Positions 5,459-57,477 of a stretch of DNA of 64,000 nt are shown in pieces. The position numbers and the translations under genes are program-made. Within the stretch, counting starts at the first letter, position 1. Each line of letters starts with the position of its first letter. The stretch is from Ligustrum vulgare (lineage: Eukaryota; Streptophyta; Magnoliopsida; Lamiales; Oleaceae). Where the stretch lies: positions 20,219,491 through 20,283,490 of the forward strand of contig OY743190.1 in the NCBI GenBank assembly GCA_963555705.1, given 5' to 3'. The notes under the pieces were generated by a model that did not search any database, had not been told where the DNA came from, and saw only the letters and a program-made list of their open reading frames with translations.

Positions 5459-5464
5459 AGTTTT

Positions 5465-6754: not shown

Positions 6755-6772
6755 AGGCCACAATCATCAGGT

Positions 6773-10945: not shown

Positions 10946-11130
10946 TCCCGCGCGGACTCAGTCGAGCCAAAGACAGTAAACAAAGGCGCTGCTCGGGAGG
11001 CAACCCGAGAGAGAGGTTTCTTTATCCCTTCAACTCTTTATTTTCGTATTTTCATTTTGGTTAATTTTGGTTTATTTAGTCACACCTAAAAAAAAAAAAA
11101 AATTTAATTATAAAATTTCCAGTGGCCTCG

Positions 11131-11271
11131 TTACGGCCGTAACTCCATTTCATTCTTTTTATGCAGAAGCCTTATTACGGCCGTAACAAAATTTTTACGG
11201 CCGTAATGGTCCCTTTGAATTTTTTTTCAGGATGTGACTTACGGCCGTAAGTCATACTTTTACGGCCGTAA
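11131..11271. repeat. TTACGGCCGTAA palindromes between pol and env-like gene
   Basis: Five perfect copies start at 11131, 11175, 11195, 11239 and 11260. The last four form two pairs with 20- and 21-bp spacing and a 64-bp pair period, the same arrangement as in the LTR. They sit just upstream of a CT-rich stretch and a candidate splice donor for the second gene. Confidence 0.92.
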
Positions 11272-11441
11272 GTCTTGTTTTTCAAAATTTTAAAAACAGA
11301 AAAAGAGGGGACCTCGCGCATAACTCTCCCTCTATCCATCTTCTTCGCACTCTCTTTCCATTTATACACCTCATTTTCGTTCTTAAGGAATCCCAATTGC
11401 ACTCATCCATCACTAACTTCCTTCCTCACAAGCTCCTCAAG

Positions 11442-12221: not shown

Positions 12222-12229
12222 GATTTTCT

Positions 12230-16181: not shown

Positions 16182-18514
16182 CTAGTAATCGCACCCGTGC
16201 GATGCACGGAATAAATAATATTTATTGAATAAGTTGTAAAAATACGATGTCCAATAAAAATAACACAATAAAAAAATAATAATAATAACTTGCATACACA
16301 AATTGTGAATAATTTGTAATTTCATTTCTCCCTATAAGATTTCTTACTTTAATGCATAAATTGTATATTCAATATACAATCAAAATATAAAAAAAGAAAA
16401 GAAAAGAAAAGTTATGAATTGCATTTTTTTAACAGTTAATTGTTCATTATCTAGTTTCCTTAGTTTATTTATTCATATAGAATTGATTTTTCAAAAATAA
16501 TTTTTTTTTAATGTTCATTCACAACCACATATTATTTAAAAACTATTTTTTCACAATTGCACATGCTACTTTTTAACCACACTTTTTAAAAAAAAGAAAA
16601 TCAATTTTTAACTACTCAATTGATTGATTTGACAATTATTTTATTTTTTATACTACCTTCTTTCACTTTCAATCACACATTTAACACAATTTCTATAATT
16701 TATATCAAACTTACTCATATTCAATAGTTTCAAATATAATGTGACATTTTATTTTTCACCAACTATTGAAAATGACCATGGTAACCACACACACAAAAAA
16801 CTATTTTTTGTGCATGTTAAATAAATGTATGGACTATATTTTATTTTTAAATAAAATAAGTTTGATAAAACCTTAGCCCCTGTTCTCTTTACTGTTTTGA
16901 GGTCGTTTTCTATTTTTATTTTCGAAAACGCTAAAAACGCGTTCTCTTTACCATTTTCGAAAACGCATTTTAGAAAATAAAAAAAAATTTGTACACAAAA
17001 CGGAAAACGCCAGAAACATCGTTTTGGGCGTTTTGTGTGTATTTCGACAAAAAATGTCCAAAACGCGGAAAACGAGTTTTGGAATTTTTTTTTTTTTTTT
17101 TAATAGAATTATCTTAACTTAGAACTAAACTTAATATAAAGTTTTTATTTTTTTTATTTTTTTATTATTTTTTTTAGAATTATCCTAATTTGGAACTAAG
17201 CCTAAATAAAGATTTTTTTTTTTTTTTTTTTTTTGAGAATTATCCTAACTTGGAATTTAGTTTAAATAAAGTTTTATTGAGTTCAATATCAACATTACAA
17301 AAACAAATTAAATGAGAATTTTTGTTGTTATATTTCAAAAAATGTAATGATAAATGGACTCTAATGATTTTGAAAGAACTTGCATTTTCTGTATTTTAAT
17401 AGAAGTAGATCTTTCTCAAATCCCGAACCTGACCAATCTGTGTTAATATAGACTCTTAATGCTCACATTAGTGTGTTGCATGTAACCATATTTTTAGTGT
17501 ATTGTGAAAGGAAATTTGAGTTGGAGTTAGTAGTATTCTGCAAGCAAATTAATTAAAAATACTTTAAATAGTGTTCTGCAAAATTTCAAACAGAACGTGT
17601 TTTCCAGCTTTTCATTTTCAAAAACCGTTTTCAGAAATGACAAACCAAACGCGTTTTCAGCAAATTTGAAAACAAAAATGAAAACACAAAACACAAAATA
17701 TTTTCGAAAATAAAAATACAAAATAAAATACAAACAGAACGCCACCTTATATTTTTATTTTCTATAGAATTTAATGAATTAATTGTTAAAGTCTGTAGTA
17801 TATATTTTACAAATTGAAGTTATTTTAAATTTATAAAAATTAAAAAATAGATAAATGAACAAAATGAGTAAATTTATAAAATTAATTTCAAAATTACCAA
17901 AGAGTTTATCGAAACCTGAAGTTGTAGAAATTAAAATGATTCAATTGAATTTACTTAGAAATATCGGATATCATTATTTCTTTTAATTTGATAAGAAAAA
18001 AGATTTGAAATTAATCATTTATGTCAAATTGAAGTTAGGTAAGAAATGATAAATATCATTTTATGTCTTAGATGAGATAAATTAAAAAGATTAGATATTG
18101 AAAAAAGTAAAAAGTATAAGTAAAACTTTTACCTTTATTATTTGAGACAATTTTAAGAATGATATATTTAGAGTTTGCTCTCATTTGTTAACTTGTATTG
18201 AACTTCTCGTTAAGATCATGAATTTGACACCTATATTGCATATTTTTTGACGAAAAAATATTACAATAATTATCAAAAGAATAAAAATAATATACAATTT
18301 GATCTTTTTATAGATTTTTTATTTTTTACAATCAATAAGTCATTTATTACATGTCACTTATAATTAATTTTGCATTAATTGAAGTTTCCTAATTCAATTA
18401 TTAAAATAATTAATAAAATTACAAAGTTTCCTAAAATAGCAGGGAAAAATGGCGGGAAACTATGTGTGGGTTTTTTTGACGGCTATACTATTATTATATA
18501 TATTAAGATTAAGA
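16182..18514 (-). mobile_element. Non-autonomous Helitron
   Basis: On the minus strand it starts TC (18514-18513) and ends CTAG (16185-16182). It sits exactly between A and T of the LTR: removing it joins GGAAGAA to TTGGATT as in the intact LTR. Next to the 3' end is a hairpin, CCGTGC-GAT-GCACGG, about ten bases inside CTAG. All three are Helitron hallmarks. No Rep/helicase is seen. It carries a second inserted element at 16876-17746. Confidence 0.9.
16876..17746. mobile_element. PIF/Harbinger-type non-autonomous element inside Helitron
   Basis: Flanked by TTA at 16873-16875 and 17747-17749. The ends form imperfect inverted repeats: GCCCCTGTTCTCTTT at the left and, inverted, GGTGGCGTTCTGTTTG at the right, each followed by TTTTCGAAAACGC-like blocks. 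The same ends occur at 24859-25933. A three-base TTA duplication fits PIF/Harbinger elements. The interior is AT-rich with long T runs and no transposase. Confidence 0.65.
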
Positions 18515-18858
18515 TTGGATTAATTAGAGCTTTTTGATTATTCCGGGTGATAAATAAAACAAAGGAAATAGTACATGCGTTGCTTGGGGAATGACAATAT
18601 TATGATAGGGCACAACCGAACCCGAGAACTAGGATTCTTTATTATTTGATTTTTATTCCAGCTATTTACATCTTTATTTGATTATTTAGATTAATTGAAA
18701 TTTTCAACTCAAACCCCCTTTATAATTCTAATTGATATGGCATTAAATTAGTTCCCGTTCCTCGTGGGATCGACCCTTGCTTCCGCTATCACATTTAAAT
18801 TTGAGTTTTGGCAAGTAAGGAAATTTAATTAATTCTTGGTGCATCGCGACGCGCACCA

Positions 18859-22971: not shown

Positions 22972-23646
22972 TCAATCCCGCGCTGCCAGCCGAGGCGAGC
23001 TCCTAAGCCTAGAAGCGGCGGCAGCAGCAACCACTGTAGCACCAACACTTTTCCCACCCTTTACCAATTTCCTCCCCTTCTTAGCCTTTACCACATTCAT
23101 AAGCTCCTTCTTACTCCTTGTCATTGCCGCCAAAACATCACATTCACCGACGGTAGCATTTTTCGCCGGACTTGCCTTTTTCCCTCCCATCCCACTCTCA
23201 CGCGCCACCCTCTCAAAATCATCACCCAACTTCCTCACGGCCCCTCTCTTGATTTCCCTCCCAGATCCGTAGCCTTCCTCGTCCACCAAACCGACAACCC
23301 GCCTCCTCTTATTTGCCACCGGAGCCGGGGGCTCCGAAGGCGACGGCGTTCTCGCGTTTTTACTCTTTTCAGTGTGAGACAAAGCAAAATCATGAGATTT
23401 CTTGAAACTCTTCTCACGCTGAGCACGGAGCTTGTCAACGTTACCCTCAATCCGACCCTGTAGACGGTGGCGCTTGAAGCTGAGGCCACCCATGGACCAG
23501 TGAGCTTCCTCGGCCCACGACATTAACGGATCCATGACTGAAGGCGGTGGGTCCACCCTTTCATCGTTCAGCTTTACATCTGTGTAGAAACGTGGCCTAG
23601 GAAGGCTGCTTCCGTAGAATTTTCCAGGACCCAAAGCCACAACCAT
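22972..23646 (-). CDS. Conserved plant basic nuclear-like protein, function unknown
   Basis: The only ordinary host gene seen, a single open exon ending at 22972. The best start is the methionine at 23646, opening MVVALGPGKFYGSSLPRPRF, which from memory is the conserved start of a plant-specific family; the frame is open further to an ATG at 23760. The N-terminal 80 residues look conserved (YTDVK.NDERVDPP, SWAEEAHWSMGGLSFKR, LQGRIEGNVDKLRAQREK). The rest is low-complexity and Lys/Arg rich, with NKRRR and KKGRK clusters that suggest nuclear or nucleolar targeting, and an Ala-rich C-terminus ending SRLRSSPRLAARD. No catalytic motif recognised. Upstream are an E2F-like GGCGGGAA (23776-23783) and a TATTTTATT box (about 23799). 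Confidence 0.8.
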   Translation of the reverse strand: MVVALGPGKFYGSSLPRPRFYTDVKLNDERVDPPPSVMDPLMSWAEEAHWSMGGLSFKRHRLQGRIEGNVDKLRAQREKSFKKSHDFALSHTEKSKNARTPSPSEPPAPVANKRRRVVGLVDEEGYGSGREIKRGAVRKLGDDFERVARESGMGGKKASPAKNATVGECDVLAAMTRSKKELMNVVKAKKGRKLVKGGKSVGATVVAAAAASRLRSSPRLAARD

Positions 23647-23775
23647 GGCTGCCGGCTTGGTATATACTAATATATGAGTTGGTGCAGAGCGAGTGATGTG
23701 TGTGTACACAGTGCGATGAACAAATGTGTCTTCTTCGATGTGATTTATAGCAGATTCCATGGGTGTTGAGATTTG

Positions 23776-23783
23776 GGCGGGAA
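23776..23783 (-). promoter_or_regulatory. E2F-like site upstream of host gene
   Basis: Reads TTCCCGCC on the gene strand, with TTGGCGGCAA-type sequence next to it (23787-23794). E2F sites mark S-phase genes in plants. A TATA-like TATTTTATT lies a few bases further upstream. Confidence 0.4.
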
Positions 23784-23884
23784 CGTTGCCGCCAAGAATA
23801 AAATACCGCGCTAATAATGAATTTCAAGTGAAATGGAATCTCAACATTATTAGTATGGTCCTTAATCTTTGACCCTCGAAACAA

Positions 23885-34982: not shown

Positions 34983-35389
34983 CTATCTTTGGCTAGACTT
35001 ATTACTTCCTCCTTCAACCGGGATTAACTGGATTCCCAAGCTCAATTTTTTCACGTTCTTCATTAGGAGACTTTCATAGAAAGGTTTAGGTCTAAGGACA
35101 TCCACTTTGCGATCTAGCTTAACTAGAAGTTGGGTAAGAGGAAGCTTCAAATAGGACTTAGGGGCCTGCAAAACAGGGGGCAGAAGCCTCTCATTAGAAA
35201 CTGGTAATGTGATATAAGAGACGTTACCTGATTGTTGTAACTTTGGACAGTTATTAAACACTGCAACATTTTCTAGCAAGTCAATACTCAAGGTTAGCGC
35301 ATCATTCTCTTCCTCAAGTTGCTTGCTATTGGAAAAGTTTAGACCATCCTTTTCACTAAATTCGAAAACTTCCTGTATTGAAGAATCAA
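34983..35389 (-). pseudogene. pol: Internally deleted Athila pol remnant
   Basis: The frame is open from the TRIM boundary to the stop at 34983 and starts within the TRIM LTR (35423), so its beginning is chimeric. Reading minus: EVFEFSEKDGLNFS and LLPPVLQAPKSYLKLPL match the segment between protease and RT at about 7830-8080. It then jumps to LRPKPFYESLL, matching the last residues of pol near 10870. RT, RNase H and integrase are gone, so this was a non-autonomous deletion derivative. Confidence 0.65.
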
Positions 35390-35507
35390 TGATACGATCC
35401 GGAACCCCGATGATAGGAATCATAGCAGGCTTGACAGAAAAATCTACAATTCAAGCCAAATTGGAGCAAAAACGAGGAAAAAAAGGATCAGTTTAGTTTT
35501 TATTGCC

Positions 35508-35660
35508 GTAATGCCAAGATTATCATGGTCGTAATCAGGTCGCTGATCAAAATGAAGAATTTCAGGTTTTCAAAGTTACGGCCGTAAGTATTATGGTCAC
35601 GGCTGTTATCCTTAAGCAGAAGTATAGTTACGGCCGTAAGTGATGTTGTCACGGCCATAA
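35508..35660. repeat. TTACGGCCGTAA-type palindromes in TRIM LTRs
   Basis: Exact and mutated copies occur in each TRIM LTR: about 35508-35660, 36613-36750, 37706-37846, 38800-38940 and 39893-39996. Within pairs the spacing is about 22-24 bp. The arrangement recalls the Athila LTRs although the LTR sequences are otherwise unrelated. Confidence 0.85.
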
Positions 35661-36149
35661 ATCCAGTTTCACGCAAATTATGCGGATTTTTAATTCCTTT
35701 TTCGTATTTTTTATTCCTTTTCCAGTTTTAGCTATTTTAGGTTAGTTAGAACTCTATTTTGAGTCCATTAGCGACTAGGGTTTTATTTTGCTTATTTATA
35801 TTCTATTTTCCATTCATTTCTGAACAGATTTTGATTATTGAATAAACATTTTGAGTGTTTTACTCGTCAAAAGGTGGATACCTTTTATTCTCCAAGAACT
35901 TATCATAATTTCAATTCTTGTGGCGTTCAAAACCCGAACTTATCAAAGATTAACTATCTTTGTGGCGTTCAAAACCAGAAACTTATCAGGGAGATTGGAA
36001 AAATCCTTGTGGCGTTTCGAAAGTCGTGGTTCTTTATTCCGCATCGTTGAGCCATCGCGTCGTGAATATCGGGTCATGATTCATCCGTCCAAGCACAACC
36101 TGAGTTCGGAACTTTCCGGCGTTTCTTTCGTGCTTCGAATCTTATCATT

Positions 36150-36161
36150 TGGTATCAGAGC
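36150..36161 (+). promoter_or_regulatory. Primer binding site (initiator Met tRNA)
   Basis: TGGTATCAGAGC two bases after the LTR end, complementary to the 3' end of plant initiator methionine tRNA. The same site recurs at about 37240 (last base changed), 38334 and 39428. Confidence 0.88.
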
Positions 36162-39100
36162 TGGACTCTGAATTCAAGTTTTTATTATATCTAGTTTAAT
36201 TCTTATGTTTATCGTCGAGTCTGCCATAAGAATTATCCATACCTTGTACCTCATGAAACTAACATTCCCCTCCCCATTCTATTTAATTCTTTCTTGCAGG
36301 TTAATGTTACGTGAAGATTTGGGAACCACTAATGTCCAAAGGTGTTTCAACTTCACGTCATTTATGTGACCCCCATTGCAAAATATTTTTGGTTGATCAT
36401 GTGAAATGGCAGGAGAAATTTTCCGTTTGATCCAGGAGGTGAAGTGAAACAACAAAAAACAAAGCTATGATTCGGGACGAATCATCCTAAAGAAGGAGGG
36501 TATGATACGATCCGGAACCCCGATGATAGGAATCATAGCAGGCTTGACAGAAAATCTACAATTCAAGCCAAATTGGAGCAAAAATGAGGCAAAAAGGATC
36601 AGTTTGGTTCTTACGGCCGTAATGTCAAGATTATCACGGCCGTAATCAAGTCGCTGATCAAAATGAAGAATTCCAGGTTTTCAAAGTTACGGCCGTAAAT
36701 ATTGTGGTCACGGCGATAATACTTAAGTAGAAGTATAGTTACGGCCGTAAATCCAGTTTCACGCAAATAATGCGGATTTTTAATTCCTTTTTCGTATTTT
36801 TTAGTCCTTTTCCAGTTTTAGCTATTTTAGGTTAGTTAGAACTCTATTTTGAGTCCATTAGCGACTAGGGTTTTATTTTGCTTATTTATATTCTATTTTC
36901 CATTCATTTCTGAACAGATTTTGATTATTGAATAAACATTTTGAGTGTTTTACTCGTCAAAAGGTGGATACCTTTTATTCTCCAAGAACTTATCATGATT
37001 TCAATTCTTGTGGCGTTCAAAACCCGAACTTATCAAAGATTAACTATCTTTATGGCGTTCAAAACCAGAAACTTATCAGGGAGATTGGACAAATCCTTGT
37101 GGGGTTTCGAAAGTCGTGGTTCTTTATTCCGCATCGTTGAGCCATCGCGTCGTGAATATCGGGTCATGATTCATCCGTCCAGCCACAACCTGAGTTCGGA
37201 ACTTTCCGGCGTTTCTTTCGTGCTTCGAATCTTATCATTTGGTATCAGAACTGGACTCTGAATTCAGGTTTTTATTCTATCTAGTTTAATTCTTATGTTT
37301 ATCATCGAGTCTGCCATAAGAATTATCCATACCTTGTACCTCATGAAACTAACATTCCCCTCCCCATTCTATTTAATTCTTTCTTGCAGGTTAATGTTAC
37401 GTGAAAATTTGGGCAACACCACTAATGTCCAAAGGTGTTTCAACTTCACGTCATTTATGTGACCCCCATTGCAGAATATTTTTGGTTGATCATGTGAAAT
37501 GGCAGGAGAAATTTTCCGTTTGATCCAGGAGGTGAAGTGAAACAACAAAACAACAAAGCTATGATTCGGGACGAATCATCCTAATGAAGGAGGGTATGAT
37601 ACGATCCGGAACCCCGATGATATGAATCATAGCAGGCTTGACAGAAAATCTACAATTCAAGCCAAATTGGAGCAAAAATGAGGCAAAAAGGATCAGTTTG
37701 GTTCTTACGGCCGTAATGTCAAGATTATCACGACCGTAATCAGGTCGTTGATCAAAATGAAGAATTTCAGGTTTTCAAAGTTACAGCCGTAAATATTATA
37801 GTCACGGCCGTAATCCTTAAGTAGAAGTATAGTTACGGCCGTAAATCCAGTTTCACGCAAATAATGCGGATTTTTAATTCCTTTTTTGTATTTTTTATTC
37901 CTTTTCCAGTTTTAGCTATTTTAGGTTAGTTAGAACTCTATTTTGAGTCGATTAGTGACTAGGGTTTTATTTTGCTTATTTATATTCTATTTTCCATTCA
38001 TTTGTGAACAGATTTTGATTATTGAATAAACATTTTGAATGTTTTACTCGTCAAAATGTGGATACCTTTTATTCTCCAAGAACTTATCATGATTTCAATT
38101 CTTGTGGCGTTCAAAACCCGAACTTATCAAAGATTAACTATCTTTGTGGCATCCAAAACCAGAAACTTATCAGGGAGATTGGAAAACTCCTTGTGGCGTT
38201 TCGAAAGTCGTGGTTCTTTATCCCGCATCGTTGAGCCATCGCGTCGTGAATATCGGATCATGATTCATCCGTCCAACCACAACCTGAGTTCGGAACTTTC
38301 CGGCGTTTCTTCCGTGCTTCGAATCTTATCATTTGGTATCAGAGCTGGACTCTGAATTCAGGTTTTTATTCTATCTAGTTTAATTCTTATATTTATCATC
38401 GAGTCTGCCATAAGAATTATCCATACCTTGTACCTCATGAAACTAACATTCCCCTCCCCATTCTATTTAATTCTTTCTTGCAGGTTAATGTTACGTGAAA
38501 ATTTGGGCAACACCACTAATGTCCAAAGGTGTTTCAACTTCACGTCATTTATGTGACCCCCATTGCAGAATATTTTTGGTTGATCATGTGAAATGGCAGG
38601 AGAAATTTTCCGTTTGATCCAGGAGGTGAAGTGAAACAACAAAACAACAAAGCTATGATTCGGGACGAATCATCCTAATGAAGGAGGGTATGATACGATC
38701 CGGAACCCCGATGATATGAATCATAGCAGGCTTGACAGAAAATCTACAATTCAAGCCAAATTGGAGCAAAAATGAGGCAAAAAGGATCAGTTTGGTTCTT
38801 ACGGCCGTAATGTCAAGATTATCACGACCGTAATCAGGTCGTTGATCAAAATGAAGAATTTCAGGTTTTCAAAGTTACGGCCGTAAATATTATAGTCACG
38901 GCCGTAATCCTTAAGTAGAAGTATAGTTACGGCCGTAAATCCAGTTTCACGCAAATAATGCGGATTTTTAATTCCTTTTTTGTATTTTTTATTCCTTTTC
39001 CAGTTTTAGCTATTTTAGGTTAGTTAGAACTCTATTTTGAGTCTATTAGAGACTAGGGTTTTATTTTGCTTATTTATATTCTATTTTCCATTCATTTGTG

Positions 39101-39996
39101 AACAGATTTTGATTATTGAATAAACATTTTGAATGTTTTACTCGTCAAAATGTGGATACCTTTTATTCTCCAAGAACTTATCATGATTTCAATTCTTGTG
39201 GCGTTCAAAACCCGAACTTATAAAAGATTAACTATCTTTGTGGCGTCCAAAACCAGAAACTTATCAGGGAGTTTGGAAAACTCCTTGTGGCGTTTCGAAA
39301 GTCGTGGTTCTTTATCCCGCATCGTTGAGCCATCGCGTCGTGAATATCGGATCATGATTCATCCGTCCAACCACAACCTGAGTTCGGAACTTTCCGGTGT
39401 TTCTTCCGTGCTTCGAATCTTATCATTTGGTATCAGAGCTGGACTCTGAATTCAGGTTTTTATTCTATCTAGTTTAATTCTTATATTTATCATCGAGTCT
39501 GCCATAAGAATTATCCATACCTTGTACCTCATGAAACTAACATTCCCCTCCCCATTCTATTTAATTCTTTCTTGCAGGTTAATGTTACGTGAAAATTTGG
39601 GCAACACCACTAATGTCCAAAGGTGTTTCAACTTCACGTCATTTATGTGACCCCCATTGCAGAATATTTTTGGTTGATCATGTGAAATGGCAGGAGAAAT
39701 TTTCCGTTTGATCCAGGAGGTGAAGTGAAACAACAAAACAACAAAGCTATGATTCGGGACGAATCATCCTAATGAAGGAGGGTATGATACGATCCGGAAC
39801 CCCGATGATATGAATCATAGCAGGCTTGACAGAAAATCTACAATTCAAGCCAAATTGGAGCAAAAATGAGGCAAAAAGGATCAGCTTGGTTCTTACGGCC
39901 GTAATGTCAAGATTATCACGGCCGTAATCAAGTCGCTGATCAAAATGAAGAATTCCAGGTTTTCAAAGTTACGGCCGTAAGTATTATGGTCACGGC

Positions 39997-40020
39997 CATG
40001 AAATGTTCAATTTTCTCAAT
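39997..40020 (-). pseudogene. gag: Athila/Tat-like gag fragment (short piece)
   Basis: On the minus strand, joined across the element at 40026-46170, the reading GKF-IEKIEHFM is continuous and matches the EKTEQFMGKTEQF repeats of the sister gag at about 61350. It ends at the truncated TRIM LTR. Confidence 0.6.
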
Positions 40021-47430: not shown

Positions 47431-47949
47431 TGTTGCTAACCGCAAGTGTACGGGTCGCACAAGTAATATAGTGGACTTTGAGTCCAGATATCGTACCAAC
47501 AGGGATTGTGTAAGTTATATTTTAGATCAAAATCCTTAATTGGAACTAAAGAAACTTGATTTGAGAATATTTATAGACCAAAACTAAATTACAAATTTAA
47601 ACTAAGAAAACAAAAAGAACTGATTTAAATAAACTTTCGAAACAAACATGTAAGAATTATGAATCCACTTAATCTCCATCATCCATGTATTTATTTAAAT
47701 ATTTAACAACAATTCATGGGGTTATGAAAATTCACTTTATTTCTTCTACTTTTGCTCCACTTTAATCATCGATTGACCTCTTCAAACACTAGTATGCACA
47801 ATTTAGCAACAGTTATCATCCAATTACTATTTATTTGCTTCATTCTCTCGACTTTGGTATTATTTATGAGATGAAAACAAAATACAACGAAATGAATAGC
47901 TTTTATTAGAAAACGGCAACAATATATCCTATTTTTTAGCGTGTAAATA
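47431..47949 (-). mobile_element. Shared central LTR, main part (minus strand)
   Basis: With 57478-57500 this forms one LTR of about 542 bp, opening TGGATAAGTGTATTTTATATGC at 57500 and ending GCGGTTAGCAACA at 47431. It is split by the 9.5-kb element at 47950-57472, with AAATA duplicated. On one side is a polypurine tract and 3' region, on the other a leader and gag, so it serves as the 3' LTR of one element and the 5' LTR of the next. Confidence 0.7.
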
Positions 47950-50900
47950 TATAGCAACCCAGAATTTTTATGCAATAAATAATTATTTTAATATTTAGAA
48001 AATTGAGTCGCTATTGTTTTGAAATTAATGCCGCGACGGATTCGTCTAGCCAAGTCAAGAAATATCGAATTTGTTCGATTTTAAATTAAATTTCCGAATT
48101 TCTAAAATTATGTTATTTTAATTGTTTATTCAAAGTATTATTTCAAAATCATTTTAAATTCCAAATTATTAAAGATATCTAATTAATTATCTTAAATTAA
48201 ACATTAGCCTAATTATGCTAGTATCCCATTAATTATTTTTATTCTTTCTTTTTCTTTTTAAATTATTTTCCTTTTCCATTCATCATCACTACCATCTCGG
48301 TTGAACACCACCACAATTCTCTCTTTATACCATTAGAATCTTCATCATTCATCACACACATGACAACCCACATTTTATTCCACCTTTACATCTAATATTC
48401 TCCAACATCATCATTTTCATCATCTTAATCGCCGAAAGCGTACATCTTCATCACCATCACAGGAATCAAAAACCACCAACACTGCCTACTTCACAACGCT
48501 GCCTAACAGTCACTGCCAATGCCAAACCTGCAAAACCACCAACCTCCAACTCACCACTTCCATCACGCCACTAATTCACCATTTTTGAAACCAATTCAAA
48601 CTCCCAATTTTTCCTCAACTCCAACCACTATCTCCATTCACAATAGCCTGCAATCTCCACCAACCTCACGACTGCCATTAACCTTGCCACTCCAAATCAA
48701 GCCACAACCACAACACAAATGAACCAACCACCAATCATCAGAATCAAACACCACCACTGCAACCCCTGTTTCCAGGCCACAGTCCAACACCACCACATTC
48801 TGATCCTTATCATCACCAATCCACCATCACAGCACAATCCTACAATCCAGTCAAACCACCCTGCCACTCGAATCGTAAATCACAACTGCCACCACCACCG
48901 CACGCAGTTAACCCAAAAATCAACCCAAACCCAAGAAACAGAGTAACCAGAAAATCACCTACCTCAAATGCCGGATTTTCGCCGGAAAAACCCCGACCTA
49001 GAATCTCGGATTTCAGCCCCAAATCGCACCAATCTCCGCCTTTCTTGCTACCACACCTTCCTCTTTGTTATCACCATTCAACGGCGGTGATACCGCCGTG
49101 GAATCACCTACGATTTTGCGCAGTACACGCCGGAGTTCCTTGCTTCCCTATCACCGTTCTGAAATCGCGAGAATGAGAGAGAGAGTGCTGAATGAGAGAG
49201 AGAGATGAAATCTAAGGATATTAATATTAATTTTCAGAATTTGCACTTTAAGCCCCCAAGTTTTGAAATGTTTCAAATCAACCCCTATGATTTTAAAACA
49301 ATCCAATTCAGTCCCTTTTAGTTTCAAAGGTTTTCAAATCAGTCCTTTCAGCTTTTAAACTTATCAATTTCAACCCTTAAGTTTTAAATGAGTTTTAATC
49401 AGTCCTATTGTTTTAAAATATATTATTTCAACCCTATTGTTTTGAGTTTCCGACTCAACTTTCAAAGTAATCATTTTAGTCCTTCAACTTTCAAAAGTAT
49501 TCATTTTAGTCCCTCAACTTTCAAAACATCAATTTTAGTCCTCAAATTATAATTTATCATTTTGAACTATATATTCGATAGAATAAAGTGACTTATTGGC
49601 TAAGACGAAGCGTACGGAGAATTTAACGAAATTGAAGTCATTCCCGCTCAACTTTGCACTCGTCGGATTTGAGGTAGACTCGCACTTATTAATTGATTTA
49701 AATTATGATTTCATATGAATGTCATGTGACTTGTGAAAGTCAATTTTTAAGAAAAACAAGTATGTTTTTATGAAAGGTAAATATACCTTATGTTGTTATG
49801 AAAAGTAAGTATGTTTTTATGAAAAGAAAATATACTTTATGTTTTACGAAAAGTAAGTATACCCTATGCTTCACGAAAATGTTTTTTTGGATCATTGCTA
49901 TGAAATCAATCTACCAAGATTGTTTTGGGTCCCATATGATAAGTTATGATATGTTAAGGGGACCGGAGTTTTAGTAGCGCTACACATAAGAATTCTTGCC
50001 ACCTAAGTTCGGTAACATTCTTGTGTCTCCTATGTTTATGAGGATTTGCCACGAAGTTCGGTAAAATTCCTATCTTTCCATATGTTTATGAGGATTTACC
50101 ACCTAAGTTCGGTAAAATTCCTGTCGCATATGTTTATGAGGATTTTGATCCTATCTTATGTTATGATGCAATTGATCCCTATGAATTTCAGAAAATTATG
50201 CTTGGTATACTTACTACATAAGAATTCTTACCACCTAAGTTCGGTAAAATTCTTATGTTTATGAGGATTTCGATTTTATCCTATGTTATGATGAAAACTT
50301 ACTGTTATTATGATTTTACTACATAAGAATTCTTACCACCTAAGTTCGGTAAAATTCTTATGTTTATGAGGATTTCAATCCTATCTTATGTTATGCTTTC
50401 AAAAGAAATTATGCTTGGCATAATTAAAATGTTTTATAAGTGTATGGTTTTCAAAGAACTGTTTTCAAAGAGATGTTTTCAAAGAGCATATGATTTGCAA
50501 AATATGTCCCGTGCTGTAATGCACAATATGAGTTTTATCAAGAGCCGTTTTATAAAGAAGCTCTATCAATGCCCGTTTTATAAAGAGCCGGGATTTATGT
50601 GTTTAATCATCTTATAAATTAAATTAATTTGCGATGAGTCTACTGAGTATTTCCCCCATGAAATACTCACCCTACTTTTTAACAGTTTTGCAGATTTCGG
50701 AGACGGTGGCGAGCGATGAATGATGGTGGCAATAATCGTTGAACGGTTGAAAGTTTGACGTTAATGATTTCCGTATTTTCCAAACAATCGAATAATTTAG
50801 AGAAGTTCATTTATTTGAGAAATTATGATATTGGCAATTTCTTTACAATATTAATGGTTCTATTTACTATTTCAAATGGTTTCATAAATGTTTTCAATTT

Positions 50901-51034
50901 TAGCGGCCATTACAGTTTATTTAATGTTGCCAAAAATGAATTTCAATTATTTCTTCCGCAAAAAAAATATTATTCGAAAAATTTAGACAGAAAATGACGT
51001 AGTGAATCGGGTATACGGAACTCGGGGCGCTACA
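47950..51034 (+). mobile_element. Left LTR, 3085 bp
   Basis: Repeated at 54388-57472 with a constant offset of 6438. No difference was found in the stretches compared, and every ORF translation within the two is the same. It contains CCACCA-rich sequence (48500-48900), a GA run near 49180, a stretch of many GTCCC...TTTCAAA lines (49250-49560), and a minisatellite at about 49998-50360. ORFs in it are compositional, not genes. Confidence 0.93.
49998..50360. repeat. LTR minisatellite with phrase CCACCTAAGTTCGGTAAAATTC
   Basis: Five copies of a phrase containing AAGTTCGGTAAAATTC, each followed by a TATGTTTATGAGGATTT phrase. The same array is in the right LTR at about 56436-56798. Confidence 0.88.
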
Positions 51035-51037
51035 AGT

Positions 51038-51050
51038 TGGTATCAGAGAT
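51038..51050 (+). promoter_or_regulatory. Primer binding site (initiator Met tRNA)
   Basis: TGGTATCAGAGAT begins three bases after the LTR end at 51034. It sets the sense direction of the element as plus, opposite to the two ORFs inside. Confidence 0.88.
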
Positions 51051-52002
51051 AGTCTGCGTTTCTGTAGACTGGAAAAATTTTCAAAAAGAATTTTCAAGAA
51101 ACATTTTCCATTATAAAATTTTATTGATGAAGATTGCCACTGCCATCATTCGTTCCACCAACTCCGAGGTAAAGAAGTTTATGATGTTTAAAGTTATTTC
51201 AGTATTTCGAATACTCATTTTATTGATTTATGAGAAAGAATGAAGAGTATTTCGGATACTTATGATTTATGAGAAATAAGAATGTATTTCTTCGAAAATA
51301 ATGATGTTGTTATGCTTTGTCATAACTTATATGCTTTAATGTATGATTATGAGAAATTTTTTTTAAAGAAAACGAGTGTTGAGCATAATGGGAATAATAT
51401 GATTTTATTGAGAATTAAGTAATGGATATTATGTTGAGTTAATTTATATTGCCTCTATGTTGAAGAGAAATTTATTATGAAGTTTGGCTTTGTGAATAAA
51501 TTTTGGGAATATGATTTATGGCATATATTTATAAGTATGAGTAACTTTTGAGCCAATTAAGGTATGAAAGGAAGTAATATTGTGATATTGAAAAATATGA
51601 TTTGAAATTTCTATGTTGAGGAATTATGAATTGAATTATGGGATATTTTGATGATATTGAAGTGTTGGAATCGTTTTCAATATTTTTAGATCGTTGTGAT
51701 CAAATGTGGAGTTATTTATTATTGTGAGTTATGAAGTATGCTTATGGTTTGGATAAGTCCAAATTACAAGGGAGACTCTATCCAGAATTTTATCATTTGG
51801 AATTAAGAGCATAATATGATAAGCATCTACTAAAGGAATTAAGTTTAGACATGCAAGTTCATTTACATCAAACGAGATTTAGTAGATGATAACAGAGATT
51901 TTATTATTTTCTCATAAGGAGAACACACAAGAGTCACACTGGAAAGGAAATACATGAAACACATGAAAGCATAAGAGAAAAACATGGAAGGATCCTCAGA
52001 AT
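51051..52002 (+). other. 5' internal region, non-coding
   Basis: AT-rich with no supported ORF. It starts with a short open stretch around MKIATAIIRSTNSEV at 51127, followed by GAGGTAAAG, a possible splice donor or gag relic. The phrase AAGTCCAAATTACAAGGGAGACTCT at about 51757 also occurs in the solo LTR near 31206, so element sequence reaches at least to 51785; the captured piece probably starts after that. Confidence 0.55.
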
Positions 52003-52215
52003 GAGAGATGTGTTTCCGGAGTAGCCGTATCCTACCACCTCTGATCTTTTGAGGAAATAAAGAAACCTTCAAAGAGGTGTGTTTCGAGAGTAAGAATACT
52101 CCGTAATCTACCACCTGGAATCTTTGAAGTACACACAAGATTTAAACATTAAGGAAATCCTAGTAAATGGAGGGGTGTCTCGAGAGTGAGAATACTCCGT
52201 ACTCTACCCCCACCT
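52003..52215. repeat. Three imperfect repeats beyond the LOG stop codon
   Basis: A phrase like GTGTxTCGAGAGTxAGAATACTCCGTA followed by CTACC(A)CC occurs at about 52010 (degenerate), 52077 and 52170, each with an ATTCTAAGA/ATCTTTGA-type tail. They lie just downstream of the LOG ORF on its strand. Confidence 0.7.
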
Positions 52216-52225
52216 ATTCTAAGAT

Positions 52226-52879
52226 TCAAAGAGTTAAGTTTACATTAACCGGACTCCATTTTCGCTTGATTCCCCTTCCTTGCGACCAATCTATCTTAAC
52301 CCCTGCTGGATCTTGTATTGAGATATATGACTGCAGCTTATCCAGTAGTTCATCAATAGTAGGAGCAGAAATAAGAAGCCTTCTGGAAAATGGAGAGATG
52401 AATCCCTGTTCCACAGCATAATCAAGAAAGGTTAACAAACCATCAAAGAAATTGTTAACATTCAGAAGCCCAATAGGTTTAGTATGGAGATCTAGTTGAG
52501 CCCACGAGGTAATGTTAAAAATTTCTTCTAAGGTACCAAAACCTCCGGGCAGGGCAATAAAGGCATCAGAACCATATAGCATACAAGTTATGCGTTCATG
52601 GATGGATAAAGTTTGAACTTCATGCCCTCGTGTTTTGCCTGCAACATCTACCAAAGGGACAGGTATAACACCGATTACTTTTGATTTCTCTGCAAGAGCA
52701 GATTGGGAAACACAACCCATTAGACCACTGCTACCACCCCCATACACAAGAGTGATACCTTTTTCCCCCAGTTTCTTTCCAAGATCTACAGCCGCTTCTA
52801 GATAACCGAAGCCTTTCCCTACTTTTGATCCACAAAATACACAAATAGTTTTGATCTGTCGAAGTTTTGGTGCTTCCAT
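52226..52879 (-). CDS. LOG: LOG-type cytokinin riboside 5'-monophosphate phosphoribohydrolase, intronless
   Basis: 217 residues, intact, the usual length of plant LOG enzymes, which release active cytokinin bases from nucleotide precursors in one step. Visible are a Rossmann-like start (TICVFCGS, residues 11-18), GGGSSGLMG (47-55), the catalytic Arg in SIHERITCM (R96) and the family signature PGGFGTLEE (111-119) with its Glu. The Lys after that Arg, usual in LOG, is replaced. The body continues SWAQLDLHTKPIGLLN and EQGFISP; the basic tail GRGIKRKW is unusual. Host LOG genes have several introns; this has none and lies antisense in an LTR retrotransposon, so it looks like a captured processed copy. 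A TATTTAAA box (52955-52962) is 76 bases upstream of the ATG. Whether it is expressed is unknown. Confidence 0.88.
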   Translation of the reverse strand: MEAPKLRQIKTICVFCGSKVGKGFGYLEAAVDLGKKLGEKGITLVYGGGSSGLMGCVSQSALAEKSKVIGVIPVPLVDVAGKTRGHEVQTLSIHERITCMLYGSDAFIALPGGFGTLEEIFNITSWAQLDLHTKPIGLLNVNNFFDGLLTFLDYAVEQGFISPFSRRLLISAPTIDELLDKLQSYISIQDPAGVKIDWSQGRGIKRKWSPVNVNLTL

Positions 52880-52954
52880 CTTTGATAGTAAAGAAGGGAA
52901 AACTTACGAAGAAGATGTGATTTTGGGATGCCTGAACTATGAAATATGTTTGGC

Positions 52955-52962
52955 TATTTAAA
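52955..52962 (-). promoter_or_regulatory. TATA-like box upstream of LOG ORF
   Basis: On the gene strand GGCTTTAAATAGCC, about 76 bases before the ATG, followed by a plausible leader with CATCTTCTTCG and a CAAAG-ATGG start context. A similar box lies before the other ORF. Confidence 0.45.
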
Positions 52963-52967
52963 GCCGG

Positions 52968-53000
<33 letters not shown>
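52968..53000. repeat. A run of 33
   Basis: Poly(A) on the plus strand, hence poly(T) on the ORF strand, between the two ORFs. It is in the wrong orientation to be the tail of either ORF's mRNA. It could be the tail of a plus-strand transcript or a simple slippage tract. Confidence 0.95.
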
Positions 53001-53003
<3 letters not shown>

Positions 53004-53110
53004 ACTGTTTTTGATTGATTCTGAAAAAGTAAAGATTTACTTTTGACAAAATCAGCCCACTTTTGAATATTTTTATCGTATCGAGGCTGTCACCTTTCGG
53101 CGATTTAATA

Positions 53111-53200
53111 TTTATTTCCAGCTTTATCAAACCTCGAGAAAGGAAAATATATTTATTTCCAGCTTTATCAAACCTCGAGAAAAGAAATATATATTTTATT
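53111..53200. repeat. Two direct copies of a 41-bp unit
   Basis: TTTATTTCCAGCTTTATCAA followed by ACCTCGAGAAA occurs at 53111 and 53152. It lies downstream of the cysteine-rich ORF stop on its strand. Confidence 0.88.
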
Positions 53201-53251
53201 TCCAAAACGCGTGAAAGAAAGCAGCAAAATATTTTAAAAAAAAGATTTACC

Positions 53252-53818
53252 TTATATCATTGCTGAACTGCCAGAAGCCTCATTTTGTAAAACAGACTGG
53301 CAAACAGGATCTTTCAATATTATATTTTGGAGACTATAACGATTTTTGTCCTCGTTAAACTGAGCGTATAAGGAGAGAAGTTCACGTTGTACATAACCAC
53401 TTGGGTGCGTCTCAAGAGTCAGTCGAATATCATCCAAAGACTCCTTACTCAGTCCACCCTTTATGAATTCGATTTTATCATCCCGATTAGTAGAAGAATA
53501 TCCTACTGATTTGCAACGTGTATTACAGTTCCAACGAGCACATTTGTAGCAACCACCCAGTCTTTTTGCTCTTCGTTTCTTTGCGAACGTGCTTTTGCCT
53601 AAACCAGGCATATGTTTTGGAAATGTTGATGGTAATTCACCAGATAGTCGAACCTTTGCTTCTATCAACCAGCGAACATCTTCTGGAATATCATGAGCCA
53701 TTAGCAACCTCAATCTTTCGAGCCTTATTTTATAGATCTTTCTCAGATCATTCATAGGAAGACTGGAATAATACTTGCGAATGTTAGAAAGAATGATATC
53801 CATTGTTTGATGATTCAA
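53252..53818 (-). CDS. Basic cysteine-rich protein resembling betaflexivirus nucleic-acid-binding proteins
   Basis: 188 residues, intact; a second start at residue 6 (53803) may be the real one. Residues 1-60 are predicted helical and charged. Then come STFAKKRRAKR (76-86), a basic run directly before a cysteine cluster C90-x2-C93-x4-C98-x3-C102, and a KIEFIKGG block (115-122). A basic stretch, a four-Cys finger and a hydrophobic follow-on in that order recall the nucleic-acid-binding proteins encoded at the 3' end of Betaflexiviridae such as vitiviruses and carlaviruses, several of which suppress silencing. The C-terminal 60 residues (ending NEASGSSAMI) are unfamiliar. The likeness is from memory of motif order, not a search. 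It sits 372 bases upstream of the LOG ORF on the same strand. Confidence 0.5.
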   Translation of the reverse strand: MNHQTMDIILSNIRKYYSSLPMNDLRKIYKIRLERLRLLMAHDIPEDVRWLIEAKVRLSGELPSTFPKHMPGLGKSTFAKKRRAKRLGGCYKCARWNCNTRCKSVGYSSTNRDDKIEFIKGGLSKESLDDIRLTLETHPSGYVQRELLSLYAQFNEDKNRYSLQNIILKDPVCQSVLQNEASGSSAMI

Positions 53819-53835
53819 CCTCTTCTCAGCATGAA

Positions 53836-53846
53836 CTATTTAAAAG
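53836..53846 (-). promoter_or_regulatory. TATA-like box upstream of cysteine-rich ORF
   Basis: CTTTTAAATAG on the gene strand, about 20 bases before the first ATG and about 35 before the second. It resembles the box before the LOG ORF (CTTTAAATAG). The short distance favours use of the second ATG, if it is a real promoter. Confidence 0.4.
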
Positions 53847-53849
53847 CGC

Positions 53850-54387
53850 AAAGGATCTGAGTGAATCCGCGTGATGTTGTGACCAGCAAGAAAGCGCAGG
53901 ATTATTTTAATGAAAAGAGGAGACAAGAAGTAATGCGCTGTTAAATTTTATCGATAAAGGAGATTTGATTGGAGATTTGGAATATTTTCTTGGATTATGG
54001 GTACTGATATTTTGTTTTAATAATGATAATCTTGGTATAGTGTGATGATACGTGGAAAGTAAAATGAGTACCGTATTGAATCAGAATTCATACGTATATA
54101 CAAGTGAAAGAAATACTTTGCAGGAAATGTGGTGACATTTAAGTATATAATCTTAGTTTTGGGAGATATTTGTTTACTGAATTTTGGGTTACAAATATTG
54201 GAAAGATAAGTTGATGATATTATGTTGATATGTTTGGGTATTTTACGTAGAGAAAATATTCAGGAATTGTTTTGATTATTTTGAGAATATTCGATGATAA
54301 GAAGAAGAGATTCTGATTAAGTATTCAGAAATTATAAGATTAAGTAAGTTTAATTTCGAGGACGAAATTATTTTAAGGAGGTAAGAT
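53850..54387 (+). other. 3' internal region and polypurine tract
   Basis: No supported ORF. It ends TTTCGAGGACGAAATTATTT and TTAAGGAGGTAAGAT (54372-54387) directly before the right LTR; the purine-rich part is the polypurine tract. The phrase is typical of the 3' end of Tekay/Del-type internal regions. Confidence 0.75.
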
Positions 54388-57300
54388 TATAGCAACCCAG
54401 AATTTTTATGCAATAAATAATTATTTTAATATTTAGAAAATTGAGTCGCTATTGTTTTGAAATTAATGCCGCGACGGATTCGTCTAGCCAAGTCAAGAAA
54501 TATCGAATTTGTTCGATTTTAAATTAAATTTCCGAATTTCTAAAATTATGTTATTTTAATTGTTTATTCAAAGTATTATTTCAAAATCATTTTAAATTCC
54601 AAATTATTAAAGATATCTAATTAATTATCTTAAATTAAACATTAGCCTAATTATGCTAGTATCCCATTAATTATTTTTATTCTTTCTTTTTCTTTTTAAA
54701 TTATTTTCCTTTTCCATTCATCATCACTACCATCTCGGTTGAACACCACCACAATTCTCTCTTTATACCATTAGAATCTTCATCATTCATCACACACATG
54801 ACAACCCACATTTTATTCCACCTTTACATCTAATATTCTCCAACATCATCATTTTCATCATCTTAATCGCCGAAAGCGTACATCTTCATCACCATCACAG
54901 GAATCAAAAACCACCAACACTGCCTACTTCACAACGCTGCCTAACAGTCACTGCCAATGCCAAACCTGCAAAACCACCAACCTCCAACTCACCACTTCCA
55001 TCACGCCACTAATTCACCATTTTTGAAACCAATTCAAACTCCCAATTTTTCCTCAACTCCAACCACTATCTCCATTCACAATAGCCTGCAATCTCCACCA
55101 ACCTCACGACTGCCATTAACCTTGCCACTCCAAATCAAGCCACAACCACAACACAAATGAACCAACCACCAATCATCAGAATCAAACACCACCACTGCAA
55201 CCCCTGTTTCCAGGCCACAGTCCAACACCACCACATTCTGATCCTTATCATCACCAATCCACCATCACAGCACAATCCTACAATCCAGTCAAACCACCCT
55301 GCCACTCGAATCGTAAATCACAACTGCCACCACCACCGCACGCAGTTAACCCAAAAATCAACCCAAACCCAAGAAACAGAGTAACCAGAAAATCACCTAC
55401 CTCAAATGCCGGATTTTCGCCGGAAAAACCCCGACCTAGAATCTCGGATTTCAGCCCCAAATCGCACCAATCTCCGCCTTTCTTGCTACCACACCTTCCT
55501 CTTTGTTATCACCATTCAACGGCGGTGATACCGCCGTGGAATCACCTACGATTTTGCGCAGTACACGCCGGAGTTCCTTGCTTCCCTATCACCGTTCTGA
55601 AATCGCGAGAATGAGAGAGAGAGTGCTGAATGAGAGAGAGAGATGAAATCTAAGGATATTAATATTAATTTTCAGAATTTGCACTTTAAGCCCCCAAGTT
55701 TTGAAATGTTTCAAATCAACCCCTATGATTTTAAAACAATCCAATTCAGTCCCTTTTAGTTTCAAAGGTTTTCAAATCAGTCCTTTCAGCTTTTAAACTT
55801 ATCAATTTCAACCCTTAAGTTTTAAATGAGTTTTAATCAGTCCTATTGTTTTAAAATATATTATTTCAACCCTATTGTTTTGAGTTTCCGACTCAACTTT
55901 CAAAGTAATCATTTTAGTCCTTCAACTTTCAAAAGTATTCATTTTAGTCCCTCAACTTTCAAAACATCAATTTTAGTCCTCAAATTATAATTTATCATTT
56001 TGAACTATATATTCGATAGAATAAAGTGACTTATTGGCTAAGACGAAGCGTACGGAGAATTTAACGAAATTGAAGTCATTCCCGCTCAACTTTGCACTCG
56101 TCGGATTTGAGGTAGACTCGCACTTATTAATTGATTTAAATTATGATTTCATATGAATGTCATGTGACTTGTGAAAGTCAATTTTTAAGAAAAACAAGTA
56201 TGTTTTTATGAAAGGTAAATATACCTTATGTTGTTATGAAAAGTAAGTATGTTTTTATGAAAAGAAAATATACTTTATGTTTTACGAAAAGTAAGTATAC
56301 CCTATGCTTCACGAAAATGTTTTTTTGGATCATTGCTATGAAATCAATCTACCAAGATTGTTTTGGGTCCCATATGATAAGTTATGATATGTTAAGGGGA
56401 CCGGAGTTTTAGTAGCGCTACACATAAGAATTCTTGCCACCTAAGTTCGGTAACATTCTTGTGTCTCCTATGTTTATGAGGATTTGCCACGAAGTTCGGT
56501 AAAATTCCTATCTTTCCATATGTTTATGAGGATTTACCACCTAAGTTCGGTAAAATTCCTGTCGCATATGTTTATGAGGATTTTGATCCTATCTTATGTT
56601 ATGATGCAATTGATCCCTATGAATTTCAGAAAATTATGCTTGGTATACTTACTACATAAGAATTCTTACCACCTAAGTTCGGTAAAATTCTTATGTTTAT
56701 GAGGATTTCGATTTTATCCTATGTTATGATGAAAACTTACTGTTATTATGATTTTACTACATAAGAATTCTTACCACCTAAGTTCGGTAAAATTCTTATG
56801 TTTATGAGGATTTCAATCCTATCTTATGTTATGCTTTCAAAAGAAATTATGCTTGGCATAATTAAAATGTTTTATAAGTGTATGGTTTTCAAAGAACTGT
56901 TTTCAAAGAGATGTTTTCAAAGAGCATATGATTTGCAAAATATGTCCCGTGCTGTAATGCACAATATGAGTTTTATCAAGAGCCGTTTTATAAAGAAGCT
57001 CTATCAATGCCCGTTTTATAAAGAGCCGGGATTTATGTGTTTAATCATCTTATAAATTAAATTAATTTGCGATGAGTCTACTGAGTATTTCCCCCATGAA
57101 ATACTCACCCTACTTTTTAACAGTTTTGCAGATTTCGGAGACGGTGGCGAGCGATGAATGATGGTGGCAATAATCGTTGAACGGTTGAAAGTTTGACGTT
57201 AATGATTTCCGTATTTTCCAAACAATCGAATAATTTAGAGAAGTTCATTTATTTGAGAAATTATGATATTGGCAATTTCTTTACAATATTAATGGTTCTA

Positions 57301-57472
57301 TTTACTATTTCAAATGGTTTCATAAATGTTTTCAATTTTAGCGGCCATTACAGTTTATTTAATGTTGCCAAAAATGAATTTCAATTATTTCTTCCGCAAA
57401 AAAAATATTATTCGAAAAATTTAGACAGAAAATGACGTAGTGAATCGGGTATACGGAACTCGGGGCGCTACA
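54388..57472 (+). mobile_element. Right LTR, 3085 bp
   Basis: Same as 47950-51034 at an offset of 6438 throughout. Followed by AAATA at 57473-57477. Confidence 0.93.
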
Positions 57473-57477
57473 AAATA

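Follow-up and report, generated by a model that had tools for sequence, protein, structure and literature searches.

The window, a 64,000-nucleotide stretch of Ligustrum vulgare DNA, contains a very young LTR retrotransposon that, as judged from its sequence, is probably a high-copy non-autonomous element with a portable accessory cassette as its cargo, made up of a gene for a virus-type nucleic-acid-binding protein (NABP) followed by a gene of the LOG family. There is good support for selection on this portable cassette in elements that propagate. Since the pair also turns up in other plants and in a second, unrelated LTR family of the host genome, it has the look of a travelling cassette kept by selection.

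The element is structurally complete and spans window positions 47950-57472 (9,523 bp). Repeat comparison finds the target-site duplication AAATA on its left (47945-47949) and right (57473-57477), and its 3,085-bp LTRs at 47950-51034 (the 5' LTR, which starts with TATAGC and ends with GCTACA) and 54388-57472 (the 3' LTR), both on the plus strand, show 0 differences. Near the start of the interior (51035-54387) a plus-strand sequence match at 51038-51048, TGGTATCAGAG, is what we take to be a primer-binding site (PBS) of the initiator-methionine tRNA (iMet) type; it differs from the PBS of the window's own Athila-type element, a reference element whose lineage name, Athila, is our assumption. 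The polypurine tract AAGGAGGTAAGA (54375-54386, plus strand) adjoins the 3' LTR, and the paired LTRs, short target-site duplication, PBS and polypurine tract by which LTR retrotransposons are recognized are all present. The gag-pol coding region that marks an autonomous element was not found in the interior by tblastn with the window's Athila-type gag, PR-RT, RH-INT and PF20167 proteins and the integrase of another locus, L025 (best E 0.25), and these queries revealed neither RT nor INT in the element. The interior holds two intact ORFs, LOG and a four-Cys NABP, both antisense to the element; Rfam and tRNA scans of the whole window gave no matches. The original prediction of a young 9.5-kb LTR element without gag-pol, carrying a full-length intronless LOG gene and a virus-like basic four-Cys gene, both antisense, is borne out by these features and by the Pfam matches of the two ORFs (PF03641, PF05515 and PF01623).

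The four-Cys ORF (53252-53803, minus strand, 183 aa), in which CYKCARWNCNTRC follows the basic stretch KKRRAKR, is confirmed at the level of sequence family as a carlavirus-type nucleic-acid-binding protein (Viral_NABP/Carla_C4). Its Pfam matches to PF05515 (3.3e-7) and PF01623 (4.8e-6) both lie above the gathering score, and the Viral_NABP and Carla_C4 cut-offs are exceeded (30.9 bits against 23 and 26.9 against 20.9, respectively). A longer call, 53252-53818, begins with TTG and gives 188 aa; the ATG at 53803 agrees with the start of most homologues and gives the 183-aa form. Like the carlavirus, allexivirus and mandarivirus proteins of these families, the plant protein has a four-Cys motif after a basic stretch, and the pattern C-x2-C-x(3-6)-C-x(2-4)-C is found in 120 of 132 sequences; unlike the viral proteins, the plant copies, of about 182 aa, are conserved in their C-terminal part and reside in chromosomal elements. 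An AlphaFold model of NABP has low confidence (pLDDT 64.8), and a search of viral folds with this low-confidence model gave nothing significant. The sixth-ranked entry of that search was a nucleic-acid-binding fragment of Garlic virus A (E 6.8), which is non-significant and was set aside.

The LOG-family ORF (52226-52879, minus strand, 217 aa) is uninterrupted and matches PF03641 at 1.3e-33. It retains PGGFGTLEE (PGGxGTxxE) and the arginine of HERxxxM, sequence features of LOG cytokinin phosphoribohydrolases. Like the plant LOG enzymes 2a33 (At2g37210) and 1ydh (At5g11950), the window LOG belongs to this sequence family and has PGGxGTxxE; unlike those two, the cassette relatives form a separate group (support 0.934 in a tree of 132 tips), and 93 of the 120 listed relatives have LxLxL within the last 28 residues, usually after K or R. 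LxLxL is the EAR motif (PMC9956375, in its available text); the window LOG lacks it, with a tail that reads VNVNLTL, and in the second host family six LOG ORFs have LDLELRL or LDLELKL as their ending. The 15 differences between the window LOG and relative P0121 show no bias to variable columns (P=0.36), and the 24 loci found with the LOG alignment in IMG/VR were set aside as distant (24-41% identity). Just 3' of the gene lie imperfect repeats (52025-52211, minus strand), a 42-nt pair with the core GAATACTCCGTA and a 25-nt pair (D1 and D7).

Copies of the window family are numerous in the host genome. The best 150 of 8,794 first-look NABP candidates were scored, and all 150 span residues 1-188, at 99%, and are stop-free. 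All 30 host loci that were read, the window among them, have the two ORFs intact; recurrence of the open pair in 29 of 29 loci besides the window places it far beyond chance. Over these loci LOG has 26 synonymous and 22 nonsynonymous variants and 0 stops; those present in at least two copies split into 15 synonymous and 0 nonsynonymous, the singletons into 11 and 22 (Fisher 7e-6), which shows, as read from variant counts, purifying selection on LOG among copies of the window family. For NABP the corresponding figures, 15 synonymous and 2 nonsynonymous, carry a bias because the 30 loci were chosen by NABP protein identity, a choice that affects LOG only indirectly.

The same genome carries the pair in a second, Athila-type family. 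At the divergent loci L056-L065, LOG lies beside NABP on the same strand in nine of ten; the remaining one, L065, is a variant (95%) of the window family. An Athila-type PBS is present in L066, L067 and L069, each time on the strand of the cassette, and a 1,993-bp repeat pair (99.7%) flanks the cassette of L067. In L068 an Athila-type integrase piece (63% over 246 residues to the window's Athila-type element), NABP and LOG follow one another on one strand. Locus L025 has an integrase 61% identical over 484 aa to that of the same reference element, then NABP on the same strand, and a search for LOG in L025 found none (best E 0.72). L025 and L068 thus show the integrase similarity that marks the Athila lineage. 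The DNA of L066-L069 matches that of the window element in just the two genes, NABP (72% over about 390 bp) and LOG (66-68% over about 460-560 bp); the gene order NABP-LOG is the same, but the cassette is sense in the second family and antisense in the window element. Between the window and the second family, in which several ORFs are truncated and loci are non-independent, dN/dS is 0.16-0.19 (NG86) and 0.31-0.35 (LWL85) for NABP (eight loci) and 0.21-0.25 (NG86) and 0.23-0.26 (LWL85) for LOG (seven loci). These ratios, as far as substitution counts can be read, show purifying selection on both genes between two LTR families. For NABP against L025 the ratios are 0.21 and 0.34, and fourfold sites raise the value to about 0.59 (14/40 differ). 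The pair had been predicted to be kept intact for a reason, with absence of a second copy and dN/dS near 1 named beforehand as the contrary outcome; what we observe is both ORFs open in every host locus read and between-family values of 0.16-0.35.

The association extends to other plants. NABP and LOG domains occur (Pfam) in one protein model in 22 of the 120 listed, comprising 20 from three Orobanche species and two from Citrus, and a motif search found both in 19 of 295 fetched proteins, with NABP first in all. The two putatively share a contig in seven cases, against a mean of 1.14 and a maximum of 5 in 120 shifted controls. P0285, P0288 and P0293 are Citrus proteins of the same cassette.

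Could the cassette be a useless passenger, picked up by template switching and open only through the youth of the insertion? With LTRs that are identical there has been little time for decay, antisense ORFs cannot be expressed from the element's own transcript, and inside the second family dN/dS is near or above 1 (NG86 0.80-1.49 for NABP and 0.97-2.26 for LOG, four pairs per gene). However, the shared LOG variants are all synonymous, both genes are constrained between families, the pair recurs in two LTR families and other plants, and a working gene would be expected to show neutral decay after insertion combined with constraint in the lineages that give rise to new copies. We therefore regard this explanation as largely contradicted and very improbable. 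Recent copying of a carlavirus RNA and a host LOG mRNA by this very element would fit the match of NABP to a viral family, the uninterrupted LOG and the long A run between the genes (52968-53000), but it can be virtually dismissed. We reject it on the presence of the pair in a second, diverged LTR family, the NABP-LOG models of Orobanche and Citrus, and the grouping of both window proteins with Orobanche cassette proteins; the near relatives that bear a name, a minority of those listed, are also plant-genome proteins, and IMG/VR scans with the single NABP query and the NABP alignment, which had no positive control for carlaviruses, found no relative. The original prediction thus holds for the element, its ORFs and their retention, and is not supported for recent uptake from host transcripts by this element, given the linkage of the pair in another LTR family and in Orobanche and Citrus gene models.

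What a selected cassette might do is a separate matter. LOG could be enzymatically active and, by raising the level of active cytokinin in meristem-like cells, favour inheritance of new insertions, as its intact motifs, the retention of PGGxGTxxE in 103 of 116 LOG matches of at most 235 aa and the constraint on LOG in the window family would allow. However, in the Orobanche LOGs of the window's LOG clade HDN or HDS replaces HER in 9/9 and 5/9 have PGGYDT, whereas 8/9 retain a basic tail ending in LSL; since these cassette LOGs lack the motif arginine, the idea, also put forward in the original prediction, that the cassette raises cytokinin is downgraded as a general rule, and we consider this role rather doubtful. 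NABP might alternatively serve as a nucleic-acid chaperone, packaging or protecting the RNA of the non-autonomous element. Its basic stretch and four-Cys motif, and an interior in which the Athila-type queries found no gag, are compatible with such a function, but the constant LOG partner is left unexplained, NABP is antisense to the element, and the knuckle of gag is CCHC, unlike the four-Cys pattern, so that this role appears unlikely.

Returning to the selected, travelling cassette, we suppose that it passed between retrotransposon lineages, with the Athila-type side the likelier source because the cassette has the sense orientation there and, at L025 and L068, follows an Athila-type integrase. 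It would have been flipped on entry into the iMet-primed element, which may move with proteins produced elsewhere. A separate TATA-like TTTAAATAG might drive transcription of each gene, antisense to the element; this sequence match lies on the minus strand at 53836-53844 (32 bases 5' of the NABP ATG) and again at 52954-52962 (74 bases 5' of the LOG ATG), in 17-base contexts that are 82% alike (repeat D16). Silencing suppression is among the known activities of viral cysteine-rich proteins (CRPs), and CVB p12 has transcription-factor activity with hyperplasia, according to the available text of PMC12172455. By analogy with its flexivirus relatives NABP, as a basic zinc-finger protein, may weaken silencing or change host transcription. 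LOG may act beside it, releasing cytokinin in those copies that retain the active site or working through a basic, EAR-like tail, and both could make the cell more permissive to expression or inheritance of the element. These roles (silencing suppression, cytokinin release, repression) are our inference from sequence resemblance. A bolder reading, which we offer tentatively as a real possibility short of probable, is that a silencing-suppressor-like NABP and a LOG-derived protein with a nuclear/EAR-like tail form an ancient host-manipulation module of plant retrotransposons that is exchanged between lineages and drives their spread, and that the flexivirus cysteine-rich proteins and NABP have one origin, with the mobile-element version perhaps the donor.

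Steinbauerova et al. 2011 reportedly found two Athila-like elements with LOGL4 similarity. Their study is cited for LOG-bearing LTR retrotransposons in the available text of PMC9289625, which describes a LOG/YgdH domain in such elements of Citrus sinensis, C. clementina and, without filter, P. trichocarpa. Like those, the cassettes described here place a LOG-family protein within Ty3/gypsy elements, include Citrus proteins and, in the second host family, accompany an Athila-type PBS; unlike them, as far as the available text of PMC9289625 goes, which makes no mention of a NABP partner, the window family has an antisense pair, another PBS and no detected gag-pol. LOG in LTR elements was therefore already known, and a limited literature search found no report of the viral-type NABP partner. 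The aORF-3R of Grande, RIRE2 and Retand are likewise conserved antisense ORFs in LTR elements, with an own promoter for Grande gene23 (PMC7264820, available text); those ORFs are described as lacking clear similarity to other proteins or viruses, whereas each of the window ORFs falls into a family with a name, and the search for pol next to the pair found none.

Accessory ORFs in antisense, anonymous as a rule, thus receive family names here. If the proposed explanation is true, this would be a clear example from plants of high-copy retrotransposons with a virus-type counter-defence gene and a hormone-pathway gene, with selection seen in the copies. It would make it possible to ask directly if silencing is suppressed or development steered by plant retrotransposons, and would also bear on gene trade between RNA viruses and retrotransposons.

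The element at 47950-57472 has the matching LTRs, 5-bp duplications, primer site and purine tract that the original prediction described. Comparison of the window with itself by BLASTN gave a 3,094-bp repeat pair (47943-51035 and 54381-57473), and refinement of its borders defines two LTRs of 3,085 bp (47950-51034 and 54388-57472) with 0 differences; the 3 differing columns in the alignment of the pair all lie left of the LTR start. The target duplication AAATA stands on either side of the element, the primer-binding-site-like TGGTATCAGAG starts 3 bases past the 5' LTR, and the purine tract ends 1 base short of the 3' LTR. Since the LTRs do not differ, the insertion is very recent unless gene conversion has acted; at an assumed substitution rate of 1.3e-8 per site per year the 95% upper bound on its age is about 37,000 years. 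The two intact antisense ORFs predicted for the interior were also found. The carlavirus-type nucleic-acid-binding protein ORF (NABP, 183 aa) runs on the minus strand from an ATG at 53803 to a stop at 53252 and matches Pfam Viral_NABP (3.3e-7) and Carla_C4 (4.8e-6), and 3' of it the cytokinin-enzyme-like ORF (LOG, 217 aa; minus strand, 52879 to 52226) matches PF03641 (1.3e-33). LOG residues 8-202 align with Arabidopsis At2g37210 (2a33), and both PGGFGTLEE and the arginine of HERxxxM are present. The TATA-like TTTAAATAG lies 5' of NABP and LOG alike, by sequence match only, and the 17-base surroundings of its two copies are similar (repeat D16, 82%).

Other features of the window were noted in passing. 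Positions 512-683 match the LTR start of the element on the reverse strand (79%) and may be what is left of a related family. In 35389-39997 a 1.09-kb unit is repeated in tandem about 4.2 times, its copies being 93-97% alike, with an iMet-type primer-site sequence at 36150, 37240, 38334 and 39428; the region resembles a small LTR-retroelement arrayed in tandem. An Athila-type element lies at about 4016-18858; its gag, PR-RT and RH-INT share one frame with three in-frame stops, followed by a PF20167 (Transposase_32) ORF at 12435-13277. A 283-aa open frame at 22975-23823 (minus strand), for which no Pfam match was found at E 0.01, is possibly part of a host gene.

The host genome (1.385 Gb, 51 contigs; the window is C23:20219491-20283490) was searched with NABP, giving 8,794 first-look candidates, which are not equal to copies; in all of the best 150, which were scored, the match extends over residues 1-188, is 99% identical and contains no stop. 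A number of copies stand in rows, spaced mostly 6.2-7.1 kb apart, which fits tandem units with common LTRs, one LTR and the interior together measuring 6,438 bp. Rows of 4-5 NABPs about 6.6-6.7 kb apart, for example at C23:10311325-10338627 and C22:1306460-1326777, are probably such arrays of the window family. We read 30 loci of 3,564 bp each, the window's own and 29 others, and found neither NABP nor LOG shortened or interrupted in any of the 30; further copies with both ORFs thus exist. Variable sites at codon positions 1, 2 and 3 number 1, 1 and 16 in NABP and 13, 11 and 24 in LOG. The LOG alternatives are 26 synonymous, 22 nonsynonymous and 0 stop, where the possible single changes are 471, 1,399 and 83. 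Of those in at least 2 copies, 15 are synonymous and none nonsynonymous, and of the singletons 11 and 22 (Fisher 7e-6); this split is what genes would show that are kept in propagating elements and drift once inserted. For NABP, 9 shared alternatives are synonymous and 2, both in codon 163, are nonsynonymous, a count biased by the choice of loci, which were picked by NABP protein identity.

Related proteins occur in other plants. Of 400 candidates the NABP search retained 349 (E<=10), and among the 120 matches listed all carry PF01623, some PF05515 as well; most rows give no host, and those that do come from Orobanche, Striga, Populus, Acer and Xanthoceras. The LOG search retained 7,230 of 7,542, and Reevesia pubescens supplies 38 of the 120 listed, on 16 contigs by hand count. 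With a fused Orobanche model as query, 22 of the 120 matches listed (query included) have both domains; 20 of these belong to Orobanche (hederae, gracilis, minor) and the remaining 2 to Citrus x changshan-huyou. By eye, so do P0288 (Citrus) and P0291 (Acer), and a motif scan of 295 fetched proteins gives 19 with both, NABP first in 19/19. Contigs apparently common to NABP and LOG matches (same size and source) number 7, against a mean of 1.14 and a maximum of 5 in 120 shifted controls. One gene model, P0258 (Orobanche gracilis), fuses NABP with PF14223, which we take to be a Copia gag-type domain, hinting at further element contexts or a nested insertion. L025, a 3,330-bp plant-like contig inside a bacterial MAG, has on one strand a 496-aa frame with integrase domains (61% identical to the window's Athila-type RH-INT), then about 200 bases and then NABP; LOG was not found within its 3,330 bp. 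Past the NABP stop, L025:2348-2416 reads RAFKPLLDVKLEEDVSHNHNYL. P0038, P0095 and P0291 have this stretch too, with no stop before it; it could be coding sequence reached by read-through, or else a conserved RNA element.

NABP of the window and of L025 give dN/dS of 0.278/1.325 (NG86) and 0.265/0.781 (LWL85), with 83/181 third codon positions differing versus 89/362 first and second (P 8e-7); fourfold sites (14/40 differing) put the ratio near 0.59. NABP differences to P0001 steer clear of conserved columns (0/20,000 shuffles); no such avoidance was found for the 15 LOG differences to P0121 (P=0.36), many of them conservative. In the NABP tree (midpoint rooted) the window clusters with Orobanche and Striga (16 tips, 0.998). 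The LOG tree, whose tips are matches picked by similarity with fused models entered whole, separates 132 cassette-type tips from two Arabidopsis proteins (0.934), joins the window LOG to P0121 (0.999), and places it in a clade (0.983) of 15 tips, nine of them Orobanche proteins. Together the trees give a hint, no more, of a host in or near Lamiales. In the nine Orobanche proteins, HDN/HDS replaces HER (9/9), PGGYDT occurs in 5/9 and a basic tail in 8/9; both LOG motifs are retained in the second type of fused Orobanche model (P0265, P0268). LxLxL lies within the last 28 residues in 93 of the 120 LOG relatives listed, which are not independent because of common descent; strict LxLxL is absent from the window LOG tail, which ends RKWSPVNVNLTL, and Leu 215 and 217 are almost invariant (28 sequences).

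A second host family carries the same pair. When the host was searched with the L025 NABP (8,542 candidates, 150 scored), a diverged group ranked first, and LOG adjoins NABP on the same strand in 9 of 10 loci read (L056-L065), the stretch without LOG being L065, a window-family variant (95%). Second-family proteins are 62-66% (NABP) and 48-58% (LOG) identical to the window's. Among four wider stretches (L066-L069), L066, L067 and L069 have the primer site TGGCGCCGTTGCC on the cassette strand; L067 has a 1,993-bp repeat pair (99.7%), and the 5.4 kb between its copies hold the cassette in sense but gave no match to Athila-type gag-pol; L068 reads, on one strand, an Athila-type integrase piece (63%), NABP and LOG. 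Their DNA matches the whole window element only in NABP (about 390 bp, 72%) and LOG (460-560 bp, 66-68%); thus the two LTR families differ in primer site and have only these two genes in common, in opposite orientation to the element. Between the families, dN/dS, the measure proposed at the outset, is under 1 for both ORFs: NABP gives 0.16-0.19 (NG86) or 0.31-0.35 (LWL85) over 8 loci, LOG 0.21-0.25 or 0.23-0.26 over 7, loci of one family not being independent. Inside the second family NG86 values are about 1 or above in the four pairs listed for each gene (NABP 0.80-1.49, LOG 0.97-2.26), and an ORF is broken, shortened or altered in L057, L058, L060, L061, L062 and L064.

These host-genome results raise our estimate that NABP-LOG is a portable accessory cassette of LTR elements from fairly likely to quite likely. 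They lower two alternatives: that the cassette does nothing for the element, unlikely before, is now improbable, and that carlavirus RNA and a host LOG mRNA were recently copied, always very improbable, is now scarcely credible. A third proposal, that active LOG raises cytokinin and hence inheritance of insertions, gains slightly because LOG is constrained in the host copies, and moves from doubtful to a little less so. Parts of the literature already describe LOG inside LTR elements (PMC9289625), antisense accessory ORFs (PMC7264820) and endogenised RNA-virus sequences in plants (PMC3136472); in the limited literature searched we found no prior report of a plant-retrotransposon NABP or of the NABP-LOG pair.

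As to what a portable cassette might do, PMC12172455 describes viral NABP relatives as suppressors of RNA silencing and credits one of them, CVB p12, with a further role as a transcription factor that brings about hyperplasia. By homology, the retrotransposon NABP may suppress silencing or act on transcription, and with LOG would form a small host-directed module; putative expression of the cassette is the least certain step, and the window-family ORFs oppose the element transcript. Tentatively, and with slightly more confidence than before, NABP and LOG may be an ancient host-manipulation module exchanged among retrotransposon lineages, the NABP having a common origin with flexivirus cysteine-rich proteins.
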